This document shows positions 5,704-21,543 of a stretch of DNA of 21,900 nucleotides, one piece after another. Each line of letters starts with the position of its first letter. The stretch's first letter is position 1. This DNA comes from a virus: IMG/VR virus record IMGVR_UViG_3300029266_001274, positions 1 through 21,900 of that record; one strand, given 5' to 3'. The position numbers and the translations under genes were made by a program. The notes beneath the pieces were generated by a model that was given only the letters and a program-made list of their open reading frames with translations, ran no database searches and was not told the origin of the DNA.

Positions 5704-8700
5704 ATGTCGGACGATATTAACGACTTCCTCAATATGTCTTGGGGAGCGGAGCCAGCCGCGCAAGATGATTACAGCTATGTCAATCTGTCCGGTGTGGAAC
5801 TTGTTACCAACAATGATGCGATTAAAGATGTGCGGGATTACTACTCCGCTCAAGGTGAAACATTCACCGATCTATCGTCTATGTGGGACCAGTTTTATTC
5901 TGATCGCCGCTGGAACGATGTTAATACGCTGGGCGCAGTAACAAACGCCGCTGAAAATTTCATGGCTGGGGATGATAACGCCCGCCTTGGTCGCTTATCT
6001 CGCATTTGGGCCAATGCGCCTATGCGCGGATCAACGCTTGATCGGGTTTGGGATTACGGAAAGGCCGCTGTACTTGACCCCACAAACTTAATTCCTGTCG
6101 CTGGGCAACTTGGCAAGGCCAAGCAAGCTTTTGGTCTAGCACGGGCGGCGGGTAATACTCTCCAACAGTCGAGGCGGGCGGGCCGAGTTGCGGGCGCAAA
6201 AACGGCGGCTGGACAAGAGGCTTTAATCGGCGGTGCTGTTGGTGGTTTGCAAGATACGCTCAACCAGAGTGTCGAAGTCGATCAGGGTCTTTCAGATGGC
6301 TTTGACATTGGCCGATTGGGGCGGTCTGTTGCTCTTGATGCTGGACTGTCCGGTGTCGCTGGCGGTGCGCTAGACTATGCGGGAACCTCTGCGATAGGTC
6401 GCAATATACCTGTCTTAAACAAGCTGATCGGCGGCGATTATGCCGATGATATTGCCAACTGGGAAGTGACAACAACGCTGGGTCAAACCCTGACCCAACG
6501 CCGCACCGCTATCGAAAGTGGTTTAACCAGAATTGATAACGAACTCGCCACTGATGGGGCTGATGTTGACGTTCTGACAGAGGAACGGATCGAACTTGCT
6601 GCCGAGCAAGCCAAGATAGAAGCTGACCGAGCAATAGTAAATGATATGGACGGGCGGTTAGATGATCTGGCAACCCAGATGCAATCAGCGGTCAAGGAAG
6701 GTGTGGATGCTACGCCGATCCGCACCGAGTACCAAACCCTTCTAACTGAATATAACAAAATTGTTGCGCGGCGGCGTATAAGACCCGCTGCTGTTGAAGG
6801 CCCGCCAGCAATGCAAGGGCCACAAGTGCCGCCAATGCAGGGGCCACAAATGCCCCCGATGCAGGGTCCACAGATGCCGCCAATGCAAGGGCCACAAATG
6901 CCCCCGATGCAGGGGCCGCAAATGCCGCCAATGCAAGGGCCGCAAATGCCTCCGATGCAGGGTCCACAGATGCCGCCAATGCAGGGGCCACAAATGCCCC
7001 CCGTTCAAGGCCCACCCCAAATGCAAGGGCCGCAAATGCCGCCCGTCCAAGGACCGCCTCAAGTGCAAGGGCCACAAATGCCCGCTGTGCAGGGTCCACC
7101 AGAATTACAGGGGCCACCACGCCCACCAGAAACCCAAGGTCCACCGGAAATGCAGGGGCCACCCCGCCCACCCGAAGTCCAAGGACCGCCCCGTCCCGTG
7201 CAAGGGCCACCAGAATTACAGGGGCCACCACGCGCACCGGAAACTCAAGGTCCACCGGAAATGCAGGGGCCAAGTCGCCCCGTCCAAGGTCCACCAGAAA
7301 TGCAAGGACCGCCTCGCGCACCAGAGGTCCAAGGCCCGCCAGAAATGCAGGGTCCAAACCGTCCGGTGCAGGGACCGCCAGAAATGCAAGGCCCGCCGCT
7401 TGGGCCGGACTTACAGGGACCGCCCGAAATGCAGGGGCCACCCGTTCCAGAAGGTGATGGGTCGGTAGAATACAGGGCGTCTAGCGCGAAGGTAAATGAT
7501 CAGCTTGAACAGCTTATCATGTCAAATTCTGACGTAATAACCCGCCAGCAAATCAATGAAATGGCGGCGGCAAACAAACTGTCTCTAACGTCTGGTCGCA
7601 AGATCGGCGGTACTGCGCTCAAACAAATCAAAAGGTTTGTTGATGATGCCCGCGCGTCTGCCGAGGTTGAGGTTCCGGATGTTCAAGGACCGTCCCTTCC
7701 TACCTCCGGTGATGGCTCATTCATTGGACCCGTCCAGAAAGCCCTTGCTAACGTCCCGATTGCTGGTGACGCTGACTTTGTTGGCCCTGTCGGATCAGGA
7801 AGCAAAACCTTCGCCAAGAATGAAGCTAAACTCACCCAAGATGATAGGGATGATGATGCTGTTCGCCGTTTGATGAAAATGGCGGCGGGTCTAAACGGCG
7901 ACAGGATTGTTAATATTCGGACACGCTTGTTAAGAGCGTACCCAAAATTCAACACGCCAGAAATTCGCAAGCGGCTAGACAATTTAGAAATGCAGAGGGC
8001 AAAAGATGGGGCCGCTGCAAATCCTGATCGGGTTCTACGGACAGAAATAGACACGGGGAAATCCACCCCATCGCGGATGGCTGACCAGACCCAGAAATCT
8101 ATGGAGAAAATCGAGGACGTACCGCCGTACATCATCGACATGGAAACAGGACGAAGAATTGCCAACCCAGAGTATAAGCAAGCGGGCATGGGTCCAAGCT
8201 ATGCGATGAAGGCTGGCGTTGATATAGGTGGGGGCCGCTCGGTCACTTCGCTTTATGGCGCACGAACAAAAGATTTCCCGCTTGAGAGCGTGAAGCGTAT
8301 CGTTGTGTCTGATGCCAAGAAAGGTGTGCAACAATCGTTGTATCCATACACGGCATATCGTGGCGAAAAACTCTATGACGGCAAAGCAGATGGCGGCGAT
8401 ATTGTATTTTATTCCCCTGTAGTGCGTAAAAGTTTCTCGACACCAGAGGGTGCGTTCAAGGCGGCTGGCGTAAGCCCCGACCAAAAATATCTGGTCGATG
8501 AAGATGCCCTGCCTGTCTATACTGACCGCCAGTATGCCGAGGAAAAATCTGCAATCATCCAACAGGCAGAAGATGGCAAGATTACCGTTGAAGAAATGGA
8601 AGATCAGGTAGACATTCTTGACGCCCGCTCAGAAGGCGCAATGTCTCGCCCACAGAAAAAAGAAGTGGTTGGCAGAAGCGGCAAGGTTATGACCCGCTTG

Positions 8701-11700
8701 CAAGCTGGCGTTCCAAATATGCGCGGCGACAAAGTTGTTGCCCTCATTCCACGCCGCCAGTTTGACCCAGATGGCAACATAGTTGCGGCTCGGATTATCA
8801 AAGAGGCCCAGATTAAGCGCGGCCTTTCCGCTGATCAACTGCTCGGTACTGAGGATGCGGCTGATTGGTTCGTTGGGTATGTACCCAAATCTTCCCGCTC
8901 GGACAGTACAGACGCCGAGGCGTTGATGGAAGTCTTTGAGCCGCTAGATGAAGCAAACACGGCTGGCGGGCTTGATACAAGAAACCCGAAAGAGCCGCCA
9001 AAGCCGCTAGACTTAGAAGCGCAAGGCGACAATCTTATTGTCGATACCTACAGTTTGCGAGGGACAGAACTTAACGACATTTTCTTTGCCTACAATCTCG
9101 CGCGGTCAAATGGCGTTGATCTTGTTCCAAACCTTAAATCCCCAAATGACTTGCACAACCACGATGTGACCTTGCGCGAACTCGCCAGTTTGGAAGTGGT
9201 TTTAGAAAATGCGGATTGGGATGCCAGCATCAAGGTTGGTGACAAATCTGTACCGCTGTCCTACGACAACCGCTTGCGGGCGATCCAGACTATGCACACG
9301 CTTATGTCTAATATTGCCCCGAATGGGGTGCGGCGACCTTCCACTGACATTACAACTAGCTTGGCTCAAGTTGACAATATCTATGCTGGAGCAAGTGCCA
9401 CCACACGCGCCAATATATCCAAGCTAATTCGTCTTGTTGTGCCAGATGGCACAGCCCCCATATTCAAAGGGGTTGATATGGATGCCAGCGTGTTAGGCCG
9501 CTTTGTGAGTGACCGAAACACGGCACTAAATCAGATTGAAATAAATCCGGAAATGATTGGAAAGACCAAAGACACGGTAGGTCTGTCTGAAACTCACATT
9601 GTAGCCCACGAACTTGGGCATTGGGTTTACGCCAACCTTATGTCGAGCGGCGACAAGGTTGAGTTTTGGGACGCAATCAGTAAATTTTATAAGGACGGTG
9701 GGCGGCTTTACAAAGACGGCGACAAGGACGCCATGTTTGAAATACAGGTCAAATCCCCGTACATCGCAGGGACTAAAAAATCTGTTGGCTTCTCAAATGC
9801 GCTCGACAATCCAAGCGAATATTTTGCCAACCAATTTGCTCTGTTTATGAACCACAAATACGACCTAATGATGTGGCCCCATATTTCGTTCTGGGAAAAA
9901 GCTATGAAGCTGACCAAGCGGCTATGGGCAACCCTGTCTAGCAAGGCAATCATCGACAAAGATTTGGAACCGATCTTTAACAAGCTGATTGAAAGTAAGA
10001 ACAAAGCCGCGCAAGCGCGGTACGCCCGTCCTGTCGAGCCGAAGAACGCTTTGGATGCAACGCTGGCAATTCGATATGACAATCTGTTGAAGTTCAAAAC
10101 CGAACTAACACGGGCAATAGATAATGCTGATCCCATTGCCTTTATCGAAAAGATTAAAGAGCCTAAGTTTGGCCTCGCGGCTGAACTTCGTAGCCTCACA
10201 GCAACTCAGGCCAATGCAAAATTCTATGCAGCCAGCAAGGGCGAGGATTACAAGAAATATACAGGCATGCTTAAAGCATTGCAGGGTGGCGGTCTGGGCG
10301 GGCGTATTAGAAGCTTGGTTAAAGAGATTGACCAGATGGGCCAACGCAATCAATCGGTTGATTACACCCTATTCCCCGACCAGAAAGAGGGTACATACGG
10401 TACGTCATATAGCCTTGATGACTACAAGGAACTCCGCAACCTGTATGACGATTACATCAAGGACACCCTTGATCAAACAATGACCCGTTTGAACGATGCC
10501 TACTATCAATCCACTAACGGTGACATTCCAAATTATGTGGTCAACATCGCCGCCCGCGAGAAGGCGGGATCGCGTTTGGATAAGGCACGGACTTTCGACG
10601 CGAATACAGCCAACACTCGCAGAGTGCGCGGTCAACGCAAATCGACAATGGAACTTGCCGTCAAGAAAATGGGCGAAAAGAAAATAGCGGATGATGCCGA
10701 TGATATTGCGGAATTTTTTGCCGCTGATTATCCGGACATTGAGCCACTGGTTCGTAGCCTTCCCACTTATATGAAGAATGGAAAGCTGACCAAAGACGGT
10801 AGGTCCATTGCGAACAAGATCAAAGAAAAAATCAACTCACAAATGCCGACCTTAGAGCCAGCGAATGTACTTCGTTACAACCAAACCAAAAAAGCGAAAG
10901 CACTAGGTAAAGTTGTAGCAGAGGGTCCATATCAAAATGCTGACATTGACCAGCTTGCCGCCTTGTTCCGCGAAGCATTGCTTGGCGATGGTAACAAAGA
11001 CAAGCTGCAAGATGTGGCGTATGAGTTCACCCGTAAATCTGGCAACATGGGTGTATATACATCGCCCACTGTCCCTGATCAGCCAGCGGTTATTGATGCG
11101 ATCAAGGTTGAGGGGATATTCAATCGCGGCGTTGAGACTGAAACAGGGATCGGTGGCAAAACCCCGTTTGTCCTGTCTAGTTTCCTGAGTGAGATTACCG
11201 CTCGGACCCCAGCTAAAGAAACAGCCGCCCGCAAGATTGCACAGCGGGTCATTGCGCTGGGCCACCAGATAAGCCCTGTTGCCAAAGGTGAAGAATTTAA
11301 TGACTTCCGTGGATTGATGCGGCGTCTGTCGGCAAATGTGGTATCCAAATCAGACATTACCCAATCGGTCAAAGAGTTGACCACAATGTTATTCCAAACC
11401 AATATTATTTCTAGTGGCACTCGCCGTCACCTAGAAAAAACGGCGGTTCGGATGGGCGTTGATGCGGATGAAATTATGTCTCGGATCATGGTCGAAGATA
11501 CTGACATGAACACAGATCGCACAATTATGAAACAGATCAAAGGGCGGTTGTCTGAGGTCGAGGGTTACGAAACCGAGGATGCACTTGACGATGCCCGCAA
11601 CTCAATACGGGAAGGGATCGCATATGTTCTTAACGGGCTGATCGAAAATCCCGCTGCGCGTGAAAGGTTCCTACCCCTCACCATGTACGGTGATATGAAA

Positions 11701-14700
11701 GCTGGCGAGGCTATTATATCGCGTGGATCACCAGCGGGAATTTACAACGATAAAGTTCCCGCTGAGTTTGCGTCTGATTTCGCAAATGACTTCATCGCCA
11801 GCCTGTCGGTTGATGCACAGGCTGCAATCAGGTCTTGGACAGGTGACGATAACATACGCATGATGTTTATATCTCCAAATTCCCGATCACCGTTGCTAGG
11901 TCGGGGCGATCTTATCACGGCCCGCCCAACCAACACAGTCAGCAACTTGCGTGACGGTATCATAGAAGCCACCCCAGAGGGTTCGCGTGAAGCCGTGACC
12001 GAAGGGCTTGACCAACTTCAAGGGGTTCGTAAAGGCGTCCTTGGTATGCGCGAAGATGGCTCGGCAAATGATCTAATAGATCACTATACATTCGGTGATG
12101 TGGTCGGTGAGAACATGGATCGGTTCGGTATCCCAGATCAGACCAGTGTTCGACCAGTGTTTGTGCGAGACAGCAAGCCCGCAATTTTCGCCCGCCGCAT
12201 GACCTACAAAGATGATGTGGTTAAGGGGATTGTGGACGTTCTTAAACGCGAGGCTCGGACCCCCGACCTTGCGGAACAGATCGACACTTACATCAATGAT
12301 AATCTTGGTATGCTGGATGGCAAGGAAGTTTTTGACGGGCTGGCGCGTCTAGCTGGCAGTGTCGAAAACTTACGCCGCACTATAAAGCGGGCGGGTCATT
12401 CCACACTGACCCTTGACGGTGAAACTGTCGTGCTTAATCAGCGCAATGTCAAAGCCGCCACAAGCGGCGACTTTGTTAATGCCAAGGCAATCATCGGTGA
12501 GCGGGACACACTCGCAGGGGTTAATTCGTTCCTTGTTCAAGAGGCGACTATCGCCACTGATGGGGGCGAGGCGGCAACCAAAATGGTATCCGGTCAGCTA
12601 GAGCAAGCTGGTGTTGATAAAGAATATCTGGGCGCGGTAAATAATCTCCGCAACCGGAAAAAGTTTTCGTATAAAGATGCCGAGGTAATTAGAGAACGCA
12701 CACACGCCACCACTAAAACTCAGTCTCAGATTATCGCCAAATCAGGTATGAAATTTATCTCAGAATTTGCAGAGCCAGAGGACGGTTCGGGTGGGCATTT
12801 TGAGCGGGTACACGGTAACATGGCCCGCACTTTGATCCCGCTTACCAAAGCACTGAATGGATTACCCGACAGCAAAAATGCTATTGGTCGGTGGTTCGAT
12901 ATGGGCATAGGTCAAATGGCGCAATCGACAACAGATACCTTTGGTCAGATTGTGGGACTAACACCCGCACGGCGACAGCAACAGCCTAAGAGCCATGAGC
13001 GTATTGCTGCTGCAATGCGTAACTCGGACAAGGTTCAAAGCCTTAAACCAGCCGAGCGGAAGGTTTACAATATCTCGCGTAAATATTTCGATGACATGCG
13101 GGGTCGCATGGCAGCGGCGGGCGAGGTCATAGGAGATATAACAAAAGATTATTTCCCCCAAGTGTGGCGAACTGATTTGATTGAGGCGCGGCGTCCACAA
13201 TTCGAGCAAATGCTGTCCCGTTATTTCCTTGCTGAACACCAAAGGGAATTTGGGACTGCCCGTACACTGACCGATGAACAGGCTTTGAAAAAAGCGCAAG
13301 ATGTGGCGTCTAATCTTTTGAAAGATGAAGGGGTATTGTTCCCGAAGCCTAATATCTTTTCGACAAAAGGACTTGGCGGGGCTGATGATCACTTAGACTA
13401 TGCCCGCTTGATCAGGCTGGACAAAAGCAAAGAGTTCACAGACCCCACCCGACCAGCCGATGATCTGGGCGCGTTCCTAGAAAACGATCTAATGATGGTA
13501 ATGTCGAAGTATGCCGACAACGCAGAACGGCGGCTGGATATATCAACTAAGTACGGTCCAGGGGCGCATGCTTTGTCTGATTACGTTTCCGTGATCCGCA
13601 ACGGACCAGAGGGTATCGCTAGTCTGCTGTCATCAAACAAAATTATGGCAAAGGATCGCCATATTTTCCAAGGTCCGGATGAAGATGATATAGAGGGCAT
13701 GGGTGCGCTCAAGGAAAAATTCGTTACTTCTTTGTTTAAGCCACCGTTTGCTTCAAAGAAAAACGCTGAGTTCTTTTCTGATCGGCTGTTGCAGAAAGCA
13801 CGGTCTGGGGCGAACCAAGATGACCTGACCCGTGACATAATGGAACTGTTGCAGGGTGACGGCATGGGCGACGAATTTTCTGATGCCATGCGGCGTAACT
13901 TCCGCAAACGTGCCGAGGCCATAGCCGCCGCGCTGACCGACACTAATGGCTTAACTCGCGTACCAAGTGACGATAACGTGAAACACGCCGAGCAATACGG
14001 CGAGTTGCTGCTGAGAAGGCCACAAGGTTCCGCAAGTGCGCGGCGGTTATCGTCTGCCTTGCGGATGGTAAACGGGGTGACATTGCTATCCTTCACCACG
14101 CTCACATCGCTGGGCGACCTTGTACTTCCATTGATCAGGTCGGGAGATTTCAAGGCTTGGACCGCCGCGCTTGGTCAGTTTATGGCTGACCCCGTGGCGG
14201 GTGGGGCGTATCGTGACATGATACGCAATGTCGGTGTGGCGGTTGAGAACACTGTTCACCAGAGAATGTCACAAGGATATGGGGTTGATGCTACCAAATT
14301 CTCCACGGGGTTTTTCACAGCAACGGGTCTGACACCTTGGACAAACATGATGCGTGAATTGGCAGGGGCTACAGCCTATGAGCATTTCAAGGCACAGACT
14401 AGGATCGCGCGGGAAGCCCCCAACACTCGCCAAGGTCGGATCGCCAAACGAAACCTAGATTATTTCGGGCTGACTAATCTGGTCGATGGTAAGTCAATGG
14501 ACATTGACATGATTATGAAAAGCGCGGGAACTGAGGCTGAGAACCCACAGTACCGAGACATTCAAAACGCGATCATAAAATTCTCAAACGAAAGTATCTT
14601 TACGCCGAACATGAATGACCTACCACAGTGGGCCAACGGCCCAACGGGTGCGGTGATTGCTCAACTTAAATCGTTCCCGCTCAAAATGCTGAGATTGGGA

Positions 14701-15261
14701 CGGTACGCATACAGTGAGGCGGCACGATCAGACGATCCAAATTTTGCCCCAGCCTTGCTTTACATGACGGCTGGCCCAGCAATGGGATTTGGTGCAGCCA
14801 CAATCAAGGATGTTGTGCAAGGTCGGGGCGGTGAGGACAACCGCGAGTTCGACACACGGGATCGCCGCATAACTAAAACCTTTAAATCGCTGGATGGTCA
14901 GCTTGGCGACAACACAGACAAAGCTTTGGGCTGGTACTTCGACGGGTTTATGACAATGGGCGGGCTGGGTATCATCGGTGAAATGCTCTATGACACAGCC
15001 AACCAACTAGATAATGGTGCATACGGTCAAATCAGGATGATGGAAACTGTCATGGGTCCGACCAGTGGGTTGTTCTTCGATGCCTCAACGGTACTCGCGG
15101 GCATGCAAGATGCGGCAAGCAATGCTATCACTGGAGAGGGTACAACGGGCAAGACCCGTGCGGCGGTGCGCGAAACAGTCAGCCGAGTGCCGATCCTTGG
15201 TCAAGTTTCTGCTGCCCGCGAAAGCATTGTGGACACTGTTGCTGGGCCACCATCCAAGTAG
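5704..15261 (+). CDS. Giant polyvalent-like ejected virion protein with zinc metallopeptidase domain (3185 aa)
   Basis: This single 9.6 kb frame starts at an ATG with TGGAG at 5691-5695. Visible regions in order are as follows. An N-terminal region (about 1-150) includes DPTNLIPVAGQLGKA, a pattern common in giant phage virion proteins. Glycine-rich hydrophobic patches lie at about 125-235. A charged coiled-coil-like stretch spans 255-358. A Pro-Gly-Gln repeat spans about 366-583. A zinc metallopeptidase motif HELGH sits at 1302-1306, with a possible third ligand Glu1372 in NPSEYFANQF. Residues 2480-2488 (TKDYFPQVW) match a motif I associate with such giants. The C-terminal ~400 residues hold hydrophobic Gly-rich segments, including 2791-2811. 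Polyvalent proteins of phages and conjugative elements are known to carry metallopeptidase domains and to enter the host with the DNA. Co-injection and acting on a host protein are inference here. A purely structural self-cleaving role is an alternative. Confidence 0.75.
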   Translation: MSDDINDFLNMSWGAEPAAQDDYSYVNLSGVELVTNNDAIKDVRDYYSAQGETFTDLSSMWDQFYSDRRWNDVNTLGAVTNAAENFMAGDDNARLGRLSRIWANAPMRGSTLDRVWDYGKAAVLDPTNLIPVAGQLGKAKQAFGLARAAGNTLQQSRRAGRVAGAKTAAGQEALIGGAVGGLQDTLNQSVEVDQGLSDGFDIGRLGRSVALDAGLSGVAGGALDYAGTSAIGRNIPVLNKLIGGDYADDIANWEVTTTLGQTLTQRRTAIESGLTRIDNELATDGADVDVLTEERIELAAEQAKIEADRAIVNDMDGRLDDLATQMQSAVKEGVDATPIRTEYQTLLTEYNKIVARRRIRPAAVEGPPAMQGPQVPPMQGPQMPPMQGPQMPPMQGPQMPPMQGPQMPPMQGPQMPPMQGPQMPPMQGPQMPPVQGPPQMQGPQMPPVQGPPQVQGPQMPAVQGPPELQGPPRPPETQGPPEMQGPPRPPEVQGPPRPVQGPPELQGPPRAPETQGPPEMQGPSRPVQGPPEMQGPPRAPEVQGPPEMQGPNRPVQGPPEMQGPPLGPDLQGPPEMQGPPVPEGDGSVEYRASSAKVNDQLEQLIMSNSDVITRQQINEMAAANKLSLTSGRKIGGTALKQIKRFVDDARASAEVEVPDVQGPSLPTSGDGSFIGPVQKALANVPIAGDADFVGPVGSGSKTFAKNEAKLTQDDRDDDAVRRLMKMAAGLNGDRIVNIRTRLLRAYPKFNTPEIRKRLDNLEMQRAKDGAAANPDRVLRTEIDTGKSTPSRMADQTQKSMEKIEDVPPYIIDMETGRRIANPEYKQAGMGPSYAMKAGVDIGGGRSVTSLYGARTKDFPLESVKRIVVSDAKKGVQQSLYPYTAYRGEKLYDGKADGGDIVFYSPVVRKSFSTPEGAFKAAGVSPDQKYLVDEDALPVYTDRQYAEEKSAIIQQAEDGKITVEEMEDQVDILDARSEGAMSRPQKKEVVGRSGKVMTRLQAGVPNMRGDKVVALIPRRQFDPDGNIVAARIIKEAQIKRGLSADQLLGTEDAADWFVGYVPKSSRSDSTDAEALMEVFEPLDEANTAGGLDTRNPKEPPKPLDLEAQGDNLIVDTYSLRGTELNDIFFAYNLARSNGVDLVPNLKSPNDLHNHDVTLRELASLEVVLENADWDASIKVGDKSVPLSYDNRLRAIQTMHTLMSNIAPNGVRRPSTDITTSLAQVDNIYAGASATTRANISKLIRLVVPDGTAPIFKGVDMDASVLGRFVSDRNTALNQIEINPEMIGKTKDTVGLSETHIVAHELGHWVYANLMSSGDKVEFWDAISKFYKDGGRLYKDGDKDAMFEIQVKSPYIAGTKKSVGFSNALDNPSEYFANQFALFMNHKYDLMMWPHISFWEKAMKLTKRLWATLSSKAIIDKDLEPIFNKLIESKNKAAQARYARPVEPKNALDATLAIRYDNLLKFKTELTRAIDNADPIAFIEKIKEPKFGLAAELRSLTATQANAKFYAASKGEDYKKYTGMLKALQGGGLGGRIRSLVKEIDQMGQRNQSVDYTLFPDQKEGTYGTSYSLDDYKELRNLYDDYIKDTLDQTMTRLNDAYYQSTNGDIPNYVVNIAAREKAGSRLDKARTFDANTANTRRVRGQRKSTMELAVKKMGEKKIADDADDIAEFFAADYPDIEPLVRSLPTYMKNGKLTKDGRSIANKIKEKINSQMPTLEPANVLRYNQTKKAKALGKVVAEGPYQNADIDQLAALFREALLGDGNKDKLQDVAYEFTRKSGNMGVYTSPTVPDQPAVIDAIKVEGIFNRGVETETGIGGKTPFVLSSFLSEITARTPAKETAARKIAQRVIALGHQISPVAKGEEFNDFRGLMRRLSANVVSKSDITQSVKELTTMLFQTNIISSGTRRHLEKTAVRMGVDADEIMSRIMVEDTDMNTDRTIMKQIKGRLSEVEGYETEDALDDARNSIREGIAYVLNGLIENPAARERFLPLTMYGDMKAGEAIISRGSPAGIYNDKVPAEFASDFANDFIASLSVDAQAAIRSWTGDDNIRMMFISPNSRSPLLGRGDLITARPTNTVSNLRDGIIEATPEGSREAVTEGLDQLQGVRKGVLGMREDGSANDLIDHYTFGDVVGENMDRFGIPDQTSVRPVFVRDSKPAIFARRMTYKDDVVKGIVDVLKREARTPDLAEQIDTYINDNLGMLDGKEVFDGLARLAGSVENLRRTIKRAGHSTLTLDGETVVLNQRNVKAATSGDFVNAKAIIGERDTLAGVNSFLVQEATIATDGGEAATKMVSGQLEQAGVDKEYLGAVNNLRNRKKFSYKDAEVIRERTHATTKTQSQIIAKSGMKFISEFAEPEDGSGGHFERVHGNMARTLIPLTKALNGLPDSKNAIGRWFDMGIGQMAQSTTDTFGQIVGLTPARRQQQPKSHERIAAAMRNSDKVQSLKPAERKVYNISRKYFDDMRGRMAAAGEVIGDITKDYFPQVWRTDLIEARRPQFEQMLSRYFLAEHQREFGTARTLTDEQALKKAQDVASNLLKDEGVLFPKPNIFSTKGLGGADDHLDYARLIRLDKSKEFTDPTRPADDLGAFLENDLMMVMSKYADNAERRLDISTKYGPGAHALSDYVSVIRNGPEGIASLLSSNKIMAKDRHIFQGPDEDDIEGMGALKEKFVTSLFKPPFASKKNAEFFSDRLLQKARSGANQDDLTRDIMELLQGDGMGDEFSDAMRRNFRKRAEAIAAALTDTNGLTRVPSDDNVKHAEQYGELLLRRPQGSASARRLSSALRMVNGVTLLSFTTLTSLGDLVLPLIRSGDFKAWTAALGQFMADPVAGGAYRDMIRNVGVAVENTVHQRMSQGYGVDATKFSTGFFTATGLTPWTNMMRELAGATAYEHFKAQTRIAREAPNTRQGRIAKRNLDYFGLTNLVDGKSMDIDMIMKSAGTEAENPQYRDIQNAIIKFSNESIFTPNMNDLPQWANGPTGAVIAQLKSFPLKMLRLGRYAYSEAARSDDPNFAPALLYMTAGPAMGFGAATIKDVVQGRGGEDNREFDTRDRRITKTFKSLDGQLGDNTDKALGWYFDGFMTMGGLGIIGEMLYDTANQLDNGAYGQIRMMETVMGPTSGLFFDASTVLAGMQDAASNAITGEGTTGKTRAAVRETVSRVPILGQVSAARESIVDTVAGPPSK
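6814..7005 (+). repeat. Tandem 24-nt coding repeat, 8 units (QGPQMPPM)
   Basis: Eight contiguous 24-base units each encode QGPQMPPM or a one-residue variant (V at position 5 in unit 1, V at position 8 in unit 8). Alternate units use different synonymous codons: units 2 and 4 end ATG-CCC-CCG-ATG, while units 3, 5 and 7 end ATG-CCG-CCA-ATG. This gives a higher-order period of 48 bases, which suggests the array grew by duplication of two-unit blocks. The product is a proline-rich, probably disordered or polyproline-II segment of the giant virion protein. Confidence 0.95.
7006..7440 (+). repeat. Degenerate Pro-Gly-Gln repeat continuing the tandem array
   Basis: Directly after the regular array the same protein continues with about eleven units that start with QGPP and run 7 to 15 residues, typically QGPPEMQGPPRAPEV or QGPPEMQGPSRPV. 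Met gives way to Glu and Arg, so this half is charged while the first half is neutral. Unit length varies but stays in frame, and stop codons are absent, so the coding function is maintained. It probably forms a flexible extended linker between the coiled-coil region and the rest of the giant protein. Confidence 0.85.
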
Positions 15262-18447: not shown

Positions 18448-18669
18448 ATGAAATTCAATCTGAAAAAATTGGTTAGCGATCTTGGTGGTGCGCGACAGGT
18501 CGCGGAACTTATCGGTGTAGGGCGAACCGTTCCTTATGGATGGATACGGCGAGACTACATCGGCTCAACTCACCTTTTATTGATTAAACAGGCCAACCCT
18601 ACGTTGGATATAAACACTTACTTTGAGCGAGGCACGAATGACCGAGGCAACACTGTCGGCAGCACTTGA
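18448..18669 (+). CDS. Cro-like helix-turn-helix regulator (73 aa)
   Basis: A small DNA-binding protein. Residues 14-38 (GARQVAELIGVGRTVPYGW, then IRRDYI) fit a Cro/CII-type helix-turn-helix in which the last helix carries the basic recognition residues. A short helix plus TLDINTYFE follows. The ATG at 18448 is preferred because AAGAGG lies five bases upstream. An in-frame ATG at 18445 leaves only two bases, and an in-frame TTG at 18388 would place the start inside the promoter region. The 3' end overlaps the primase-helicase gene by 32 bases. Its place beside a divergent control region with an inverted repeat suggests that it regulates both its own operon and the leftward recombination operon. 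Confidence 0.7.
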   Translation: MKFNLKKLVSDLGGARQVAELIGVGRTVPYGWIRRDYIGSTHLLLIKQANPTLDINTYFERGTNDRGNTVGST

Positions 18670-20536
18670 GTATATAGACAGGGGATGGTCAGTCATCCCC
18701 ATCAGAGCGGGAACTAAAAAGCCCGTAATAGGATGGAAGGAATATCAAGACAGACAACCAACCGAGGCTGAGTGCATTGGTTGGTTTGAGGATACAGACC
18801 ACGACATCGCGATTGTGTGTGGTCGGGTCAGCAACCTAGTCGTGGTGGATACTGATGATGACACCGCGACTAGGTTGGCAGCGGATCAGGGATGGGACCG
18901 GACCCCGTATCGGGTCAAGACCCGCAAAGGTTATCACTACTATTTTTCGACTGACACTCGGATACAGAAGGGAAAATTAGCCGACAAAGTAGACCTACAA
19001 GCCGAGGCAAGTTATGTGCTTGCACCGCCAAGCACAGACAAAACCTTTGTGCCTCTGGCTGGCTGTGATCCTGACGATCTTCCCTCATACTCTGGCCCTA
19101 TGGCTGGCACGGTGGTCGGCATAAATACCCATGAGGATTACGAAGATATTTCCCTAGACAATATTAAAATCCGTGAACCGATCTGGGAAGCGACAGAAAA
19201 ATTTGTAGCCCAGCACGGCAAGCTTGCTGGTGGTGTAGGGCATAACTGTCACAATCGTCTGGTCAGCTTAGTTGGTGAGTACGCAGCCGTGGGCTACAGC
19301 CCACAGGAAACCTATGCCGCCGCGCAAGAATTTATGCAGTTGTTTATGGCCGACCCCTTTGATGATCCGAAGGTATGGGGTGTAATCAAAGATATATACC
19401 GTAACGAATTGAAGAAAGAGCCTGACAATGTTCAGCCTATTAAAGAGGAAACACCGGAGCCTGACCCAGACCCAGAAATAAAGCTGATCACGACCAAAGA
19501 CATTGATAGGCTTGAGGAATATCTAGGTGATCAGACGTTCTACGTTGACCCAATCATCCCAAGTAATGACGCCACTTTAACAATGGTGTTTGGGTTTAGC
19601 GGGCATGGCAAGTCAATGTTTACGCGAAACATGCTGTACTCTGCATGCTGTGAGGATCAAACGTATGGGCCTTTCATCCTACAGGATAGACCGCGCGTGT
19701 TGTACCTCGATCTTGAAAATGGACGGCGTAACATCACCAAGTTTTTGAACCAAGCGAAGGCAACGTATGGGGATGCGGGCGATAACTTTATGATGTTCGC
19801 CCCGTTTGAGGGGTTGGATATGAACCTCAAGTCTGACGCTGGTATCAAACTTTTAAGACAGGTGATCAACCAGACGCGCCCAAACATCGTTTGCATTGAT
19901 ACAATCCGTTCTGCGTTCCCTGGAATTATTGAAAAGGAAGGTAGCGAATGGGCCAACGTCAACGCACTAATTATGAAGCTACGCAACCACGGGATTAGTG
20001 TGATCCTAGTCCACCATGCCAATAAGCCGCAAGATGGCGGGCAGTCTGGAAGCTTCGCGGGATCGACCAACGCTATGACCAATCTGGAATTTCAAATCAA
20101 AATTACTCAGGTGTTCGACGAGCAGGATAAGGCCGTGTCTCGCGCGGGAATATACACTGGCGATATTGAGGATGCTAACCTACTGAGGCTGCAATCTCCC
20201 GCCGCTCTCAAGGATGGGGAGCGCATGGCGATGCTGTTAAAAATTCAGTTCACCAAAAATCGTGAGGCTGACGAAAGTTTAGAGGACGTTAGCTATATGG
20301 GCTTCGCCTCAAATTATGACGCCAGAACATTTCGCCCCGTGTCGGTCAAGACGCCAAAGCAAAGGGCTATGTATATGGCTAGGCCGCATGCTCTGGTGGA
20401 TGGGACGGTTGCCGCTGGTCTGTCTGATTTGGAGATAGCCCGCAAGCTTGATCTGCCGCTCAACCTTGTAAAAGATTGGCTGGCAATCGTGCGGAAGAAT
20501 GAAGTGGCCCCCTACATTTCAAACCAAATTAGTTAA
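18638..20536 (+). CDS. Bifunctional primase-polymerase / RepA-like helicase fusion (632 aa)
   Basis: Replication initiation and priming protein. The N-terminal domain (about 5-160) is a Prim-Pol archaeo-eukaryotic primase: GWSVIPIRAGTKKP near the start, metal-binding DTDDD at 71-75, His100 in KGYHYYF, and Asp119 with SYVLAPPS after it. An acidic proline-rich linker lies at about 270-280. The C-terminal domain is a RecA-fold ATPase of the RepA/AAA_25 type: Walker A GFSGHGKS (319-326), LYLDLEN with Asp358 and Glu360, Walker B IVCIDTI with Asp421, and VHHANKP (458-464). A C-terminal segment (SDLEIARKLDLPLNLVKDWL) resembles a small HTH. The ATG at 18638 has GAGG five bases upstream; a TTG at 18623 in frame is less likely. 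The catalytic residues appear intact. A structured non-coding region that may be its origin follows. Confidence 0.85.
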   Translation: MTEATLSAALEYIDRGWSVIPIRAGTKKPVIGWKEYQDRQPTEAECIGWFEDTDHDIAIVCGRVSNLVVVDTDDDTATRLAADQGWDRTPYRVKTRKGYHYYFSTDTRIQKGKLADKVDLQAEASYVLAPPSTDKTFVPLAGCDPDDLPSYSGPMAGTVVGINTHEDYEDISLDNIKIREPIWEATEKFVAQHGKLAGGVGHNCHNRLVSLVGEYAAVGYSPQETYAAAQEFMQLFMADPFDDPKVWGVIKDIYRNELKKEPDNVQPIKEETPEPDPDPEIKLITTKDIDRLEEYLGDQTFYVDPIIPSNDATLTMVFGFSGHGKSMFTRNMLYSACCEDQTYGPFILQDRPRVLYLDLENGRRNITKFLNQAKATYGDAGDNFMMFAPFEGLDMNLKSDAGIKLLRQVINQTRPNIVCIDTIRSAFPGIIEKEGSEWANVNALIMKLRNHGISVILVHHANKPQDGGQSGSFAGSTNAMTNLEFQIKITQVFDEQDKAVSRAGIYTGDIEDANLLRLQSPAALKDGERMAMLLKIQFTKNREADESLEDVSYMGFASNYDARTFRPVSVKTPKQRAMYMARPHALVDGTVAAGLSDLEIARKLDLPLNLVKDWLAIVRKNEVAPYISNQIS

Positions 20537-20538
20537 GC

Positions 20539-20582
20539 AAAAAACCCCCGCTTTTGCAGTGCGAAACCTAACCAAGCGGGGG
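20539..20582. terminator. Terminator-like hairpin after the primase-helicase gene
   Basis: A 9-bp perfect stem (20545-20553 with 20574-20582, CCCCCGCTT/AAGCGGGGG) encloses 20 bases. Six As at 20539-20544 mean that leftward RNA would end GGGGG-UUUUUU, a good intrinsic terminator. Rightward RNA has only GAGUUU after the stem. In rightward RNA the loop can fold further (UUUUGC/GCGAAA, 20552-20566, one U-G pair), which is less perfect in leftward RNA. The evidence on direction is therefore mixed. It may act on rightward transcripts from the replication gene, on a leftward transcript from the next intergenic region, or on both. Confidence 0.6.
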
Positions 20583-20825
20583 GAGTTTAGACAACCAAGG
20601 GAGGATAAAAATTGTCTTTAATTTTCTGTGTCCCAAAGGACACTCGCGTACTGCCTACTTCCTTCGTATCCACCGCAACCCGCACCAGCGGGGTTGCGTG
20701 TCCACTACGTCGTAAACACTCAGCGAGTGTACCGTGTTTGTCGGAAAAGTAAACCCCTATAGGTGTGCTGGTTGTGAAAAAAGTTGTGTTGTGATACATA
20801 GACCACATCACAACGAGGGGATTTG
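20583..20825. other. Stem-loop-rich non-coding region; candidate origin, structured RNA or operator
   Basis: No convincing gene is present. Beyond the terminator there are five further inverted repeats: AGACAA/TTGTCT (20589-20594 with 20612-20617), GTGTCC/GGACAC with a 4-base loop (20628-20643), CGCAACCC/GGGTTGCG (20674-20698), ACACTC/GAGTGT with a 3-base loop (20716-20730) and GTTGTGAT/ATCACAAC (20788-20814). A purine-rich GGGAGG (20599-20604) sits in the loop of the first. Placement directly after the primase-helicase gene is typical of phage replication origins. A leftward non-coding RNA ending at the preceding T-run is also possible. The function is inferred from structure and position only. 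Confidence 0.45.
20771..20814 (+). promoter_or_regulatory. Operator/promoter cluster of GTTGTG half-sites
   Basis: GTTGTG occurs at 20771, 20783 and 20788, and its complement CACAAC at 20809. The last two form a perfect 8-bp palindrome (GTTGTGAT/ATCACAAC, 11-base spacer). A weak promoter overlaps it: TTGTGA at 20772-20777, 17 bases, then an extended TGA-TACATA at 20792-20800. The cluster ends one base before the GAGGGG ribosome site of the next gene, so a bound protein would block initiation of that transcript. The promoter call is low confidence; the repeats are directly visible. Confidence 0.4.
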
Positions 20826-21167
20826 ATGTTGGCAAGATCACCGATCACATCCGATGTTGAGCGGTGGCTGAAATCTAATCATAAACATCACAGTCACCGT
20901 GAACTCGCCGCGCATATCGGGTGTTGCTTAGACACAGTGAAACGGGCGTTAGTCAGACTCGATTTGGAGGTTATCTATGGGGCGAAATACCAACGGCGTG
21001 AGGCCAATAAGAAATGGTCACGGCCCTGCATAACTTGCGGCTCGACCAGACCACGCCCACGCTACCAGTATAAGTGCGGTCCTTGCCATGAGCGGATCAA
21101 TGATCTTGAGCGTGTGAACCTAAACAAAAAACGCCAAACAGATATATCATTACCAAGGATGGATTAA
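20826..21167 (+). CDS. HTH plus zinc-ribbon DNA-binding protein (113 aa)
   Basis: The ATG at 20826 has GAGGGG five bases upstream, and an in-frame TTG at 20823 would be too close. Residues 11-50 contain a helix-turn-helix (HSHRELAAHIG, then CLDTVKRALVRL). A zinc-ribbon-like pattern follows: Cys68 and Cys71 in CITC, Cys84 and Cys87 in CGPC, a C-x2-C-x12-C-x2-C arrangement flanked by Arg and Lys. The protein is strongly basic. These features fit a sequence-specific DNA-binding protein, either a regulator or an accessory replication factor. The GTTGTG cluster just upstream suggests autoregulation. It ends one base before the nuclease gene, so the two are probably co-transcribed. I do not recognise a named family. 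Confidence 0.65.
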   Translation: MLARSPITSDVERWLKSNHKHHSHRELAAHIGCCLDTVKRALVRLDLEVIYGAKYQRREANKKWSRPCITCGSTRPRPRYQYKCGPCHERINDLERVNLNKKRQTDISLPRMD

Positions 21168-21168
21168 A

Positions 21169-21543
21169 ATGTCAGCGATGAAGCGCAAGGGGGACGGGTA
21201 TGAGCGTGAGTTAGCCGCTTGGTTCAATACTGAGATATTCGGTGAGGAAAGGTGCCAACGCGCACCACTCAGCGGGGGCGGCAAGATCGGCATGCAAGCG
21301 GGCGGCGCAGATATTCTAGGGACTGACTATCTATTCGTTGAAGCCAAGCGCGTTGAAAAATTAAACTGGCGTGAGGCCGTGGCTCAGTCTGAGCGGAACG
21401 CCGCTCATAAAAAAACTGACCAGACTCCGATAGTAATCACCCGCAAGTCCCGTGAAGCAACGGGCGATAGCCTGTGTGTCCTTCGCCTCAAGGATTTCAA
21501 AAAATATTATGAAGCTTACTTGCATCAACAATCAAAAATCTAG
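21169..21543 (+). CDS. Small PD-(D/E)XK endonuclease, Holliday-junction-resolvase-like (124 aa)
   Basis: The layout matches the small phage PD-(D/E)XK nucleases. An N-terminal helix has KRKGDGYERELAAWF with Glu12 and Glu14 as the expected metal-helping acid. A Gly-rich loop (PLSGGGKIGMQAGGADI) carries Asp48, and the core strand FVEAKR holds Glu58 and Lys60. The later REAVAQSERNAAHKK helix and PIVITRKSR strand complete the fold. The family includes junction resolvases and packaging- or recombination-linked nucleases. The likely role is to cut branched recombination or replication intermediates. The ATG at 21169 follows the previous stop by one base, with AAGGATGGA upstream. An in-frame ATG at 21178 is a possible shorter start. 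The catalytic residues appear intact. Confidence 0.75.
   Translation: MSAMKRKGDGYERELAAWFNTEIFGEERCQRAPLSGGGKIGMQAGGADILGTDYLFVEAKRVEKLNWREAVAQSERNAAHKKTDQTPIVITRKSREATGDSLCVLRLKDFKKYYEAYLHQQSKI

Follow-up and report, generated by a model that had tools for sequence, protein, structure and literature searches.

What function do the 289 bases that follow the replication gene of this marine phage serve? In the window, meaning the whole stretch of 21,900 nucleotides that was analysed (positions 1 to 21,900 of IMG/VR record IMGVR_UViG_3300029266_001274), they form the longest gap between likely genes (20537-20825). The neighbouring genes are as follows:

18638-20536, plus strand: protein with Prim-Pol and AAA_25 (RepA-like helicase) domains, identified by Pfam; relatives were found
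20826-21167, plus strand: HTH and four-cysteine (zinc-ribbon-like) protein, with an alternative TTG start at 20823
21169-21543, plus strand: RusA/PDDEXK-like resolvase

Pfam gave no SF3 helicase match in the Prim-Pol protein of the window, and neither known RNA families nor tRNAs were found in the window. Positions 5704-15261 are occupied by a single open frame of 3185 aa, with a run of MPPMQGPQ-type repeats at about 6.9-7.5 kb; this is probably a giant virion protein.

An earlier note had described six inverted repeats in the gap and read them as a candidate replication origin or, failing that, a structured RNA. All of the repeats it described are present in the sequence, among them one of 9/9 bp (20545-20553/20574-20582), two of 8/8 bp (20674-20681/20691-20698 and 20788-20795/20807-20814) and two 6 bp stems, with a loop of 3 nt (20716-20721/20725-20730) and of 4 nt (20628-20633/20638-20643). 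Their grouping into one origin array holds for the middle part, where 20674-20698 and 20716-20730 are parts of a larger conserved element whose outer arms (20640-20647/20723-20730) were missing from the original list. It does not hold for the two ends, as 20537-20582 is terminator-like and 20783-20814 is operator-like. The features of the gap, with the frequency of the outer arms among the relatives described below, are:

20537-20582, minus strand: intrinsic-terminator-like hairpin AAGCGGGGG followed by T6, read from the sequence (the scanner's loop limit excludes it)
20628-20643: 6-bp hairpin GTGTCC/GGACAC, overlapping the left arm
20640-20647: left outer arm ACACTCGC, complement of 20723-20730, with equivalents in 67 of 69 relatives
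20674-20698: central hairpin CGCAACCC/GGGTTGCG with inner GC/GC; relatives have a hairpin of different sequence in the same place
20716-20721: second short copy ACACTC, which can pair locally with 20725-20730 as an alternative hairpin
20723-20730: right outer arm GCGAGTGT, complement of the left arm, with equivalents in relatives
20726-20731, minus strand: putative -10 box TACACT, in the right arm and reaching one base beyond it in this phage
20748-20753, minus strand: putative -35 box TTTACT (TTGAC in most relatives), with a 16-nt spacer and no partner in the stem
20772-20800, plus strand: promoter-like site TTGTGA-N17-TACATA of the HTH gene, read from the sequence and below the scan cut-off
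20783-20814: operator-like dyad GTTGTGAT/ATCACAAC spanning the HTH gene's promoter-like site

The terminator-like hairpin was not seen in the nearest relatives, and the hairpin at 20628-20643 is apparently specific to this phage. Short local arm copies like that at 20716-20721 were seen by eye in many relatives. ACACCT/AGGTGT motifs are repeated between the divergent promoters of many relatives (L104, for example) and resemble operators, perhaps for the HTH protein.

Since 40% of shuffles of this part of the sequence also reach 8 bp, the 8-bp outer arms are not significant in the window alone, and their significance comes from the comparison with relatives. With the HTH, Prim-Pol and resolvase proteins as queries, about 230 viral loci were found, and the Roseobacter phage CRP-810 in addition. 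Removal of near-identical gaps left 69 non-redundant Prim-Pol-to-HTH gaps, from IMG/VR contigs and CRP-810, with the window counted in. A scan for related loci with the window's Prim-Pol protein alone found no loci, and alignments were needed as the query; a later scan, for which the Prim-Pol alignment was broadened, supplied a held-out set of loci that had not been used before. The annotation of CRP-810 omits two genes conserved at this locus, the HTH/zinc-ribbon-like gene (L002:8392-8685, plus strand; record 14023-14316) and a small minus-strand gene (KYPEIAEFVDAVRAYFPDAKV; L002:7826-8143, minus strand; record 14565-14882). In the CRP-810 record, whose host belongs to the CHUG lineage of Roseobacter, the element falls at about 14439-14552. 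CRP-810 also has an Rfam tRNA match (L002:13306-13377, plus strand) about 12 nt from its integrase gene, probably the setting of an attachment site.

Complementary arms of 7-16 bp, usually 11-13, enclose 58-125 nt with a central hairpin in 67 of the 69 gaps, so the stem conservation for which the earlier note had asked is found. The arms take 38 different sequences. Their mean score is 11.3, compared with 7.1 in dinucleotide shuffles, and scores of at least 11 are reached by 81% of the gaps and by 0.7% of the shuffles. Arms are weak in three of the 67 (L064, L068 and L151); the left arm of L151 is cut to 7 bp, and its Prim-Pol protein is 99% identical to that of L198, so the two phages offer a natural comparison of how long the stem must be. 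The element could not be fitted in L083 and L219; inspection of L219 by eye alone suggests that a degraded copy, with a single G·T pair, may be present there.

The element lies 44-136 nt upstream of the HTH start, and the distance from the Prim-Pol stop to the left arm runs from 12 to about 1010 nt, so its tie to the HTH promoter region is no looser than its tie to the Prim-Pol gene. When 11 near-complete relatives (1.23 Mb, both strands) were scanned for the stem with its embedded promoter, the locus was found once in nine of the 11, with one unrelated match overall. The pattern missed the locus in G001 and G005, where the -35 box is TTGCC; both have the stem. In the later-scan loci the element is present in nearly all of those with enough downstream sequence. 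Exceptions exist: the Prim-Pol gene of L313 is directly followed by the HTH gene, L081/L082 have the Prim-Pol gene and lack the HTH gene, and in none of these was an element found nearby; nor was one found in L054 or the Poseidonocella sequence L272. The element is thus not strictly required by the Prim-Pol family, or has moved elsewhere in these genomes, which were seen in part. A separate 12-bp inverted repeat arm, TCGTGCAGGTCT, is shared by CRP-810, G003 and G009 inside the Prim-Pol gene, about 1.1 kb upstream of the element, and may only reflect conserved coding sequence.

The two arms change together. With stem positions anchored on the promoter -10 to give a 12-position stem, the core positions are 94-100% Watson-Crick and positions just outside are at chance levels. 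As the arm search had favoured good Watson-Crick runs, we ran a test defined by the promoter, which was found blind to the repeat; the 12-mer around the -10 was then compared with the 40-150 nt downstream. Complementarity of at least 10/12 was found in 75% of relatives, compared with 5.5% when the 12-mers of other relatives were used, and full 12/12 complementarity in 42% compared with 0.25%. Parsimony of the core pairs on the Prim-Pol tree gave 71 double Watson-Crick changes, three one-sided changes and six others. L228 and L230, with Prim-Pol proteins 97% identical, illustrate this, with arms TGATAGAATG/CATTCTATCA in one and TGGTAGAATG/CATTCTACCA in the other. The covariation that the earlier note had proposed to look for is therefore very strong in the outer arms.

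A sigma-70-type promoter pattern on the minus strand, TTGAC-N16/17-TAnAnT, stands in fixed register to the right arm. The base after TTGAC is T or A in most relatives. The -10 lies entirely within the arm in 57 of 67 relatives, most commonly starting 3 nt from the arm's outer end, and in about half of the relatives the arm starts with the TGn of an extended -10. The -35 shows no such pairing, as the best complement of the -35 10-mer was no better than controls. From this register we infer that the repeated segment is the melting region of a putative promoter. Transcription is predicted to begin about 2-4 nt beyond the arm, and the RNA would then lack the outer stem. A conserved small minus-strand gene lies downstream in 48 of the 67 relatives. 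Promoter and stem are kept in the window, L004, L015, L016, L022, L024 and others that have no minus-strand gene. The element can thus be explained neither by that protein nor by its leader, and the leader was rejected as a full explanation. Termination of the Prim-Pol mRNA was likewise rejected, as the outer stem is not GC-rich and has no consistent T run.

These results bear on whether the element acts as RNA or as DNA. A structured RNA could take the form of a minus-strand transcript's leader, of a small RNA, or of a fold within mRNA that reads through on the plus strand. The covariation fits it, as do the conserved promoter that reads into the element, the minus-strand gene downstream in most relatives and the window's minus-strand terminator-like hairpin, which would end an RNA of about 180 nt. 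The gap as a whole also folds well as RNA compared with dinucleotide shuffles (z -3.6 on the minus strand and -3.2 on the plus strand, with 0 of 200 shuffles as good). However, an RNA that starts at about the end of the arm that carries the -10 would have no outer stem, the element persists where the downstream gene is absent, and the Rfam 15 covariance models gave no match to it. RNA helices are normally richer in wobble pairs. All four Watson-Crick pairs occur in the core outer stem and G·T pairs are absent; the central hairpins have 681 Watson-Crick pairs, 11 G·T, 4 A·C and 40 other mismatches, a G·T share among the exceptions that is close to chance, with no wobble enrichment. Both hairpin searches penalised G·T like any other mismatch, so the wobble argument is supporting rather than conclusive. 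Taken together, the outer stem and the central hairpin look constrained as DNA, and we regard a structured RNA as unlikely. Of the two possibilities raised in the earlier note, the origin is the better explanation.

A regulatory DNA switch for divergent transcription is a serious rival to the origin, if a doubtful one. Here a cruciform formed by the inverted copy of the -10 region, or a protein that bridges the two sites (the HTH protein, perhaps), would control both the minus-strand promoter and that of the HTH gene, with no role in replication. The arm boundaries match the extended -10 region, the element is always near the HTH start, and L081/L082 lack both HTH gene and element. Against this, 38 arm sequences are ill suited to a fixed protein site, paired arm changes separate L045 and L142 despite 90% identity between their HTH proteins, L313 lacks the element although it has the HTH gene, and looping needs neither a central hairpin nor a wide loop. 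A further but improbable explanation is a single-strand promoter of the Frpo type, in which the plus strand folds when single-stranded, the left arm serves as the non-template -10, and a primer or early transcript is made by RNA polymerase. The stem spans the extended -10 and stops close to where transcription is predicted to begin, as if the promoter had been opened in advance, and the plus-strand mismatches of the central hairpin (A·G/G·A 23 vs C·T/T·C 5, in loci that are not independent) hint, by their purine-purine excess, that the plus strand is the folded one. Yet these phages are not known to pass through a single-stranded stage, and the -35 has no partner here, whereas the Frpo structure takes in the -35 region with its complement as well (PMC11541004). 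Finally, perfect arms might have arisen incidentally as the DNA replicates, through template switching or through repair at hairpins, with no selected function. Arm-to-arm conversion would give few one-sided changes, as seen (3 vs 71). The fixed promoter register, the persistent central hairpin and the single site per genome point instead to selection on place and form, which makes this explanation very improbable.

In our judgement there is an even chance that the DNA stem-loop at about 20640-20753, 3' of the Prim-Pol/helicase gene, is a replication origin or a single-strand initiation site within one. The covariation, the conservation and the place 3' of the Prim-Pol/helicase gene all argue for this part of the original proposal. 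GC skew does not: in 11 near-complete relatives the cumulative skew suggested as a check, with third positions split by gene strand, does not turn at the element. The skew is dominated by gene orientation and is weak evidence.

There are several steps by which such an origin could work. Host RNA polymerase would open the -10 region, and the freed strands would fold into the hairpin, or the hairpin may form in vivo on lagging-strand ssDNA. The exposed loop of about 60-125 nt could then allow loading and priming by the Prim-Pol/RepA-like helicase, with the transcript, or RNA polymerase itself, supplying an RNA primer. A bolder and less likely reading is a two-state promoter-origin: as duplex the element would be an ordinary promoter, and when folded it would be a hairpin with its -10 already open, and RNA polymerase itself would open or prime the origin for the phage Prim-Pol/RepA-like replisome. 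If this is true, the coupling of a sigma-70-type -10 to a covarying stem is a new origin design in a widespread marine phage family. To our knowledge, the origins of Prim-Pol phages are almost uncharted. The signature of a covarying stem with an embedded promoter, one per genome, singles out a specific candidate origin in a phage isolate whose host is in culture, and it raises the question whether RNA polymerase takes part in starting Prim-Pol replication. In the passages of the CRP-810 paper that we consulted, the family is described as diverse and globally distributed, and an origin is not mentioned (PMC11288001).

There are several known systems with which the element can be compared. No such element was found among the inverted repeats near the Prim-Pol-like genes of Streptomyces phage mu1/6, Sinorhizobium phage NV1.1.1 and MW202444. 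In the Frpo/ssi sites of conjugative plasmids (PMC11541004), as here, a promoter -10 is paired with its complement in a DNA hairpin; here the -35 lies outside the stem, unpaired, and the genome is that of a dsDNA phage. Closer in setting is Bordetella phage BIP-1, for which a similar stem-loop 3' of the primase gene was reported and a mode shared with pRN1 proposed (PMC4234260). In BPP-1 we find an inverted repeat with 9-bp arms and a 52-nt loop just past the primase stop. Both cases are phages with a Prim-Pol-type replication gene and an inverted repeat 3' of it, but the BPP-1 arm GGCGTCAGC has no -10 box.

The nearest likeness is to the archaeal plasmid pRN1. A stem-loop of about 100 nt 3' of orf904, which encodes its Prim-Pol/helicase, is needed for replication and can be relocated; its structure is conserved and its sequence is not, and one stem mutation was tolerated only together with a change in its partner (PMC4234260; PMC3869888). 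The pRN1 origin has a 21-nt stem and a 58-nt loop (Berkner et al. 2014, PMC4234260; Joshua et al. 2013, PMC3869888). The phage stem is usually 11-13 bp and carries a bacterial -10, and no promoter in the stem has been reported for pRN1. The phage element also has a conserved central hairpin, an HTH gene with its own putative promoter follows it, and the phage helicase domain is AAA_25 where pRN1 has an SF3 helicase and a winged helix. The AAA_25 domain and the promoter in the stem are the reasons why we say that the candidate origin works like a pRN1-type origin and do not class it as one, a reading whose chances we put at about half. The likeness lies in an element of about 100 nt 3' of a Prim-Pol/helicase gene, in structure kept without sequence, and in paired stem changes, and it lends support to the proposal, made in 2014, that phages too have origins like that of pRN1.
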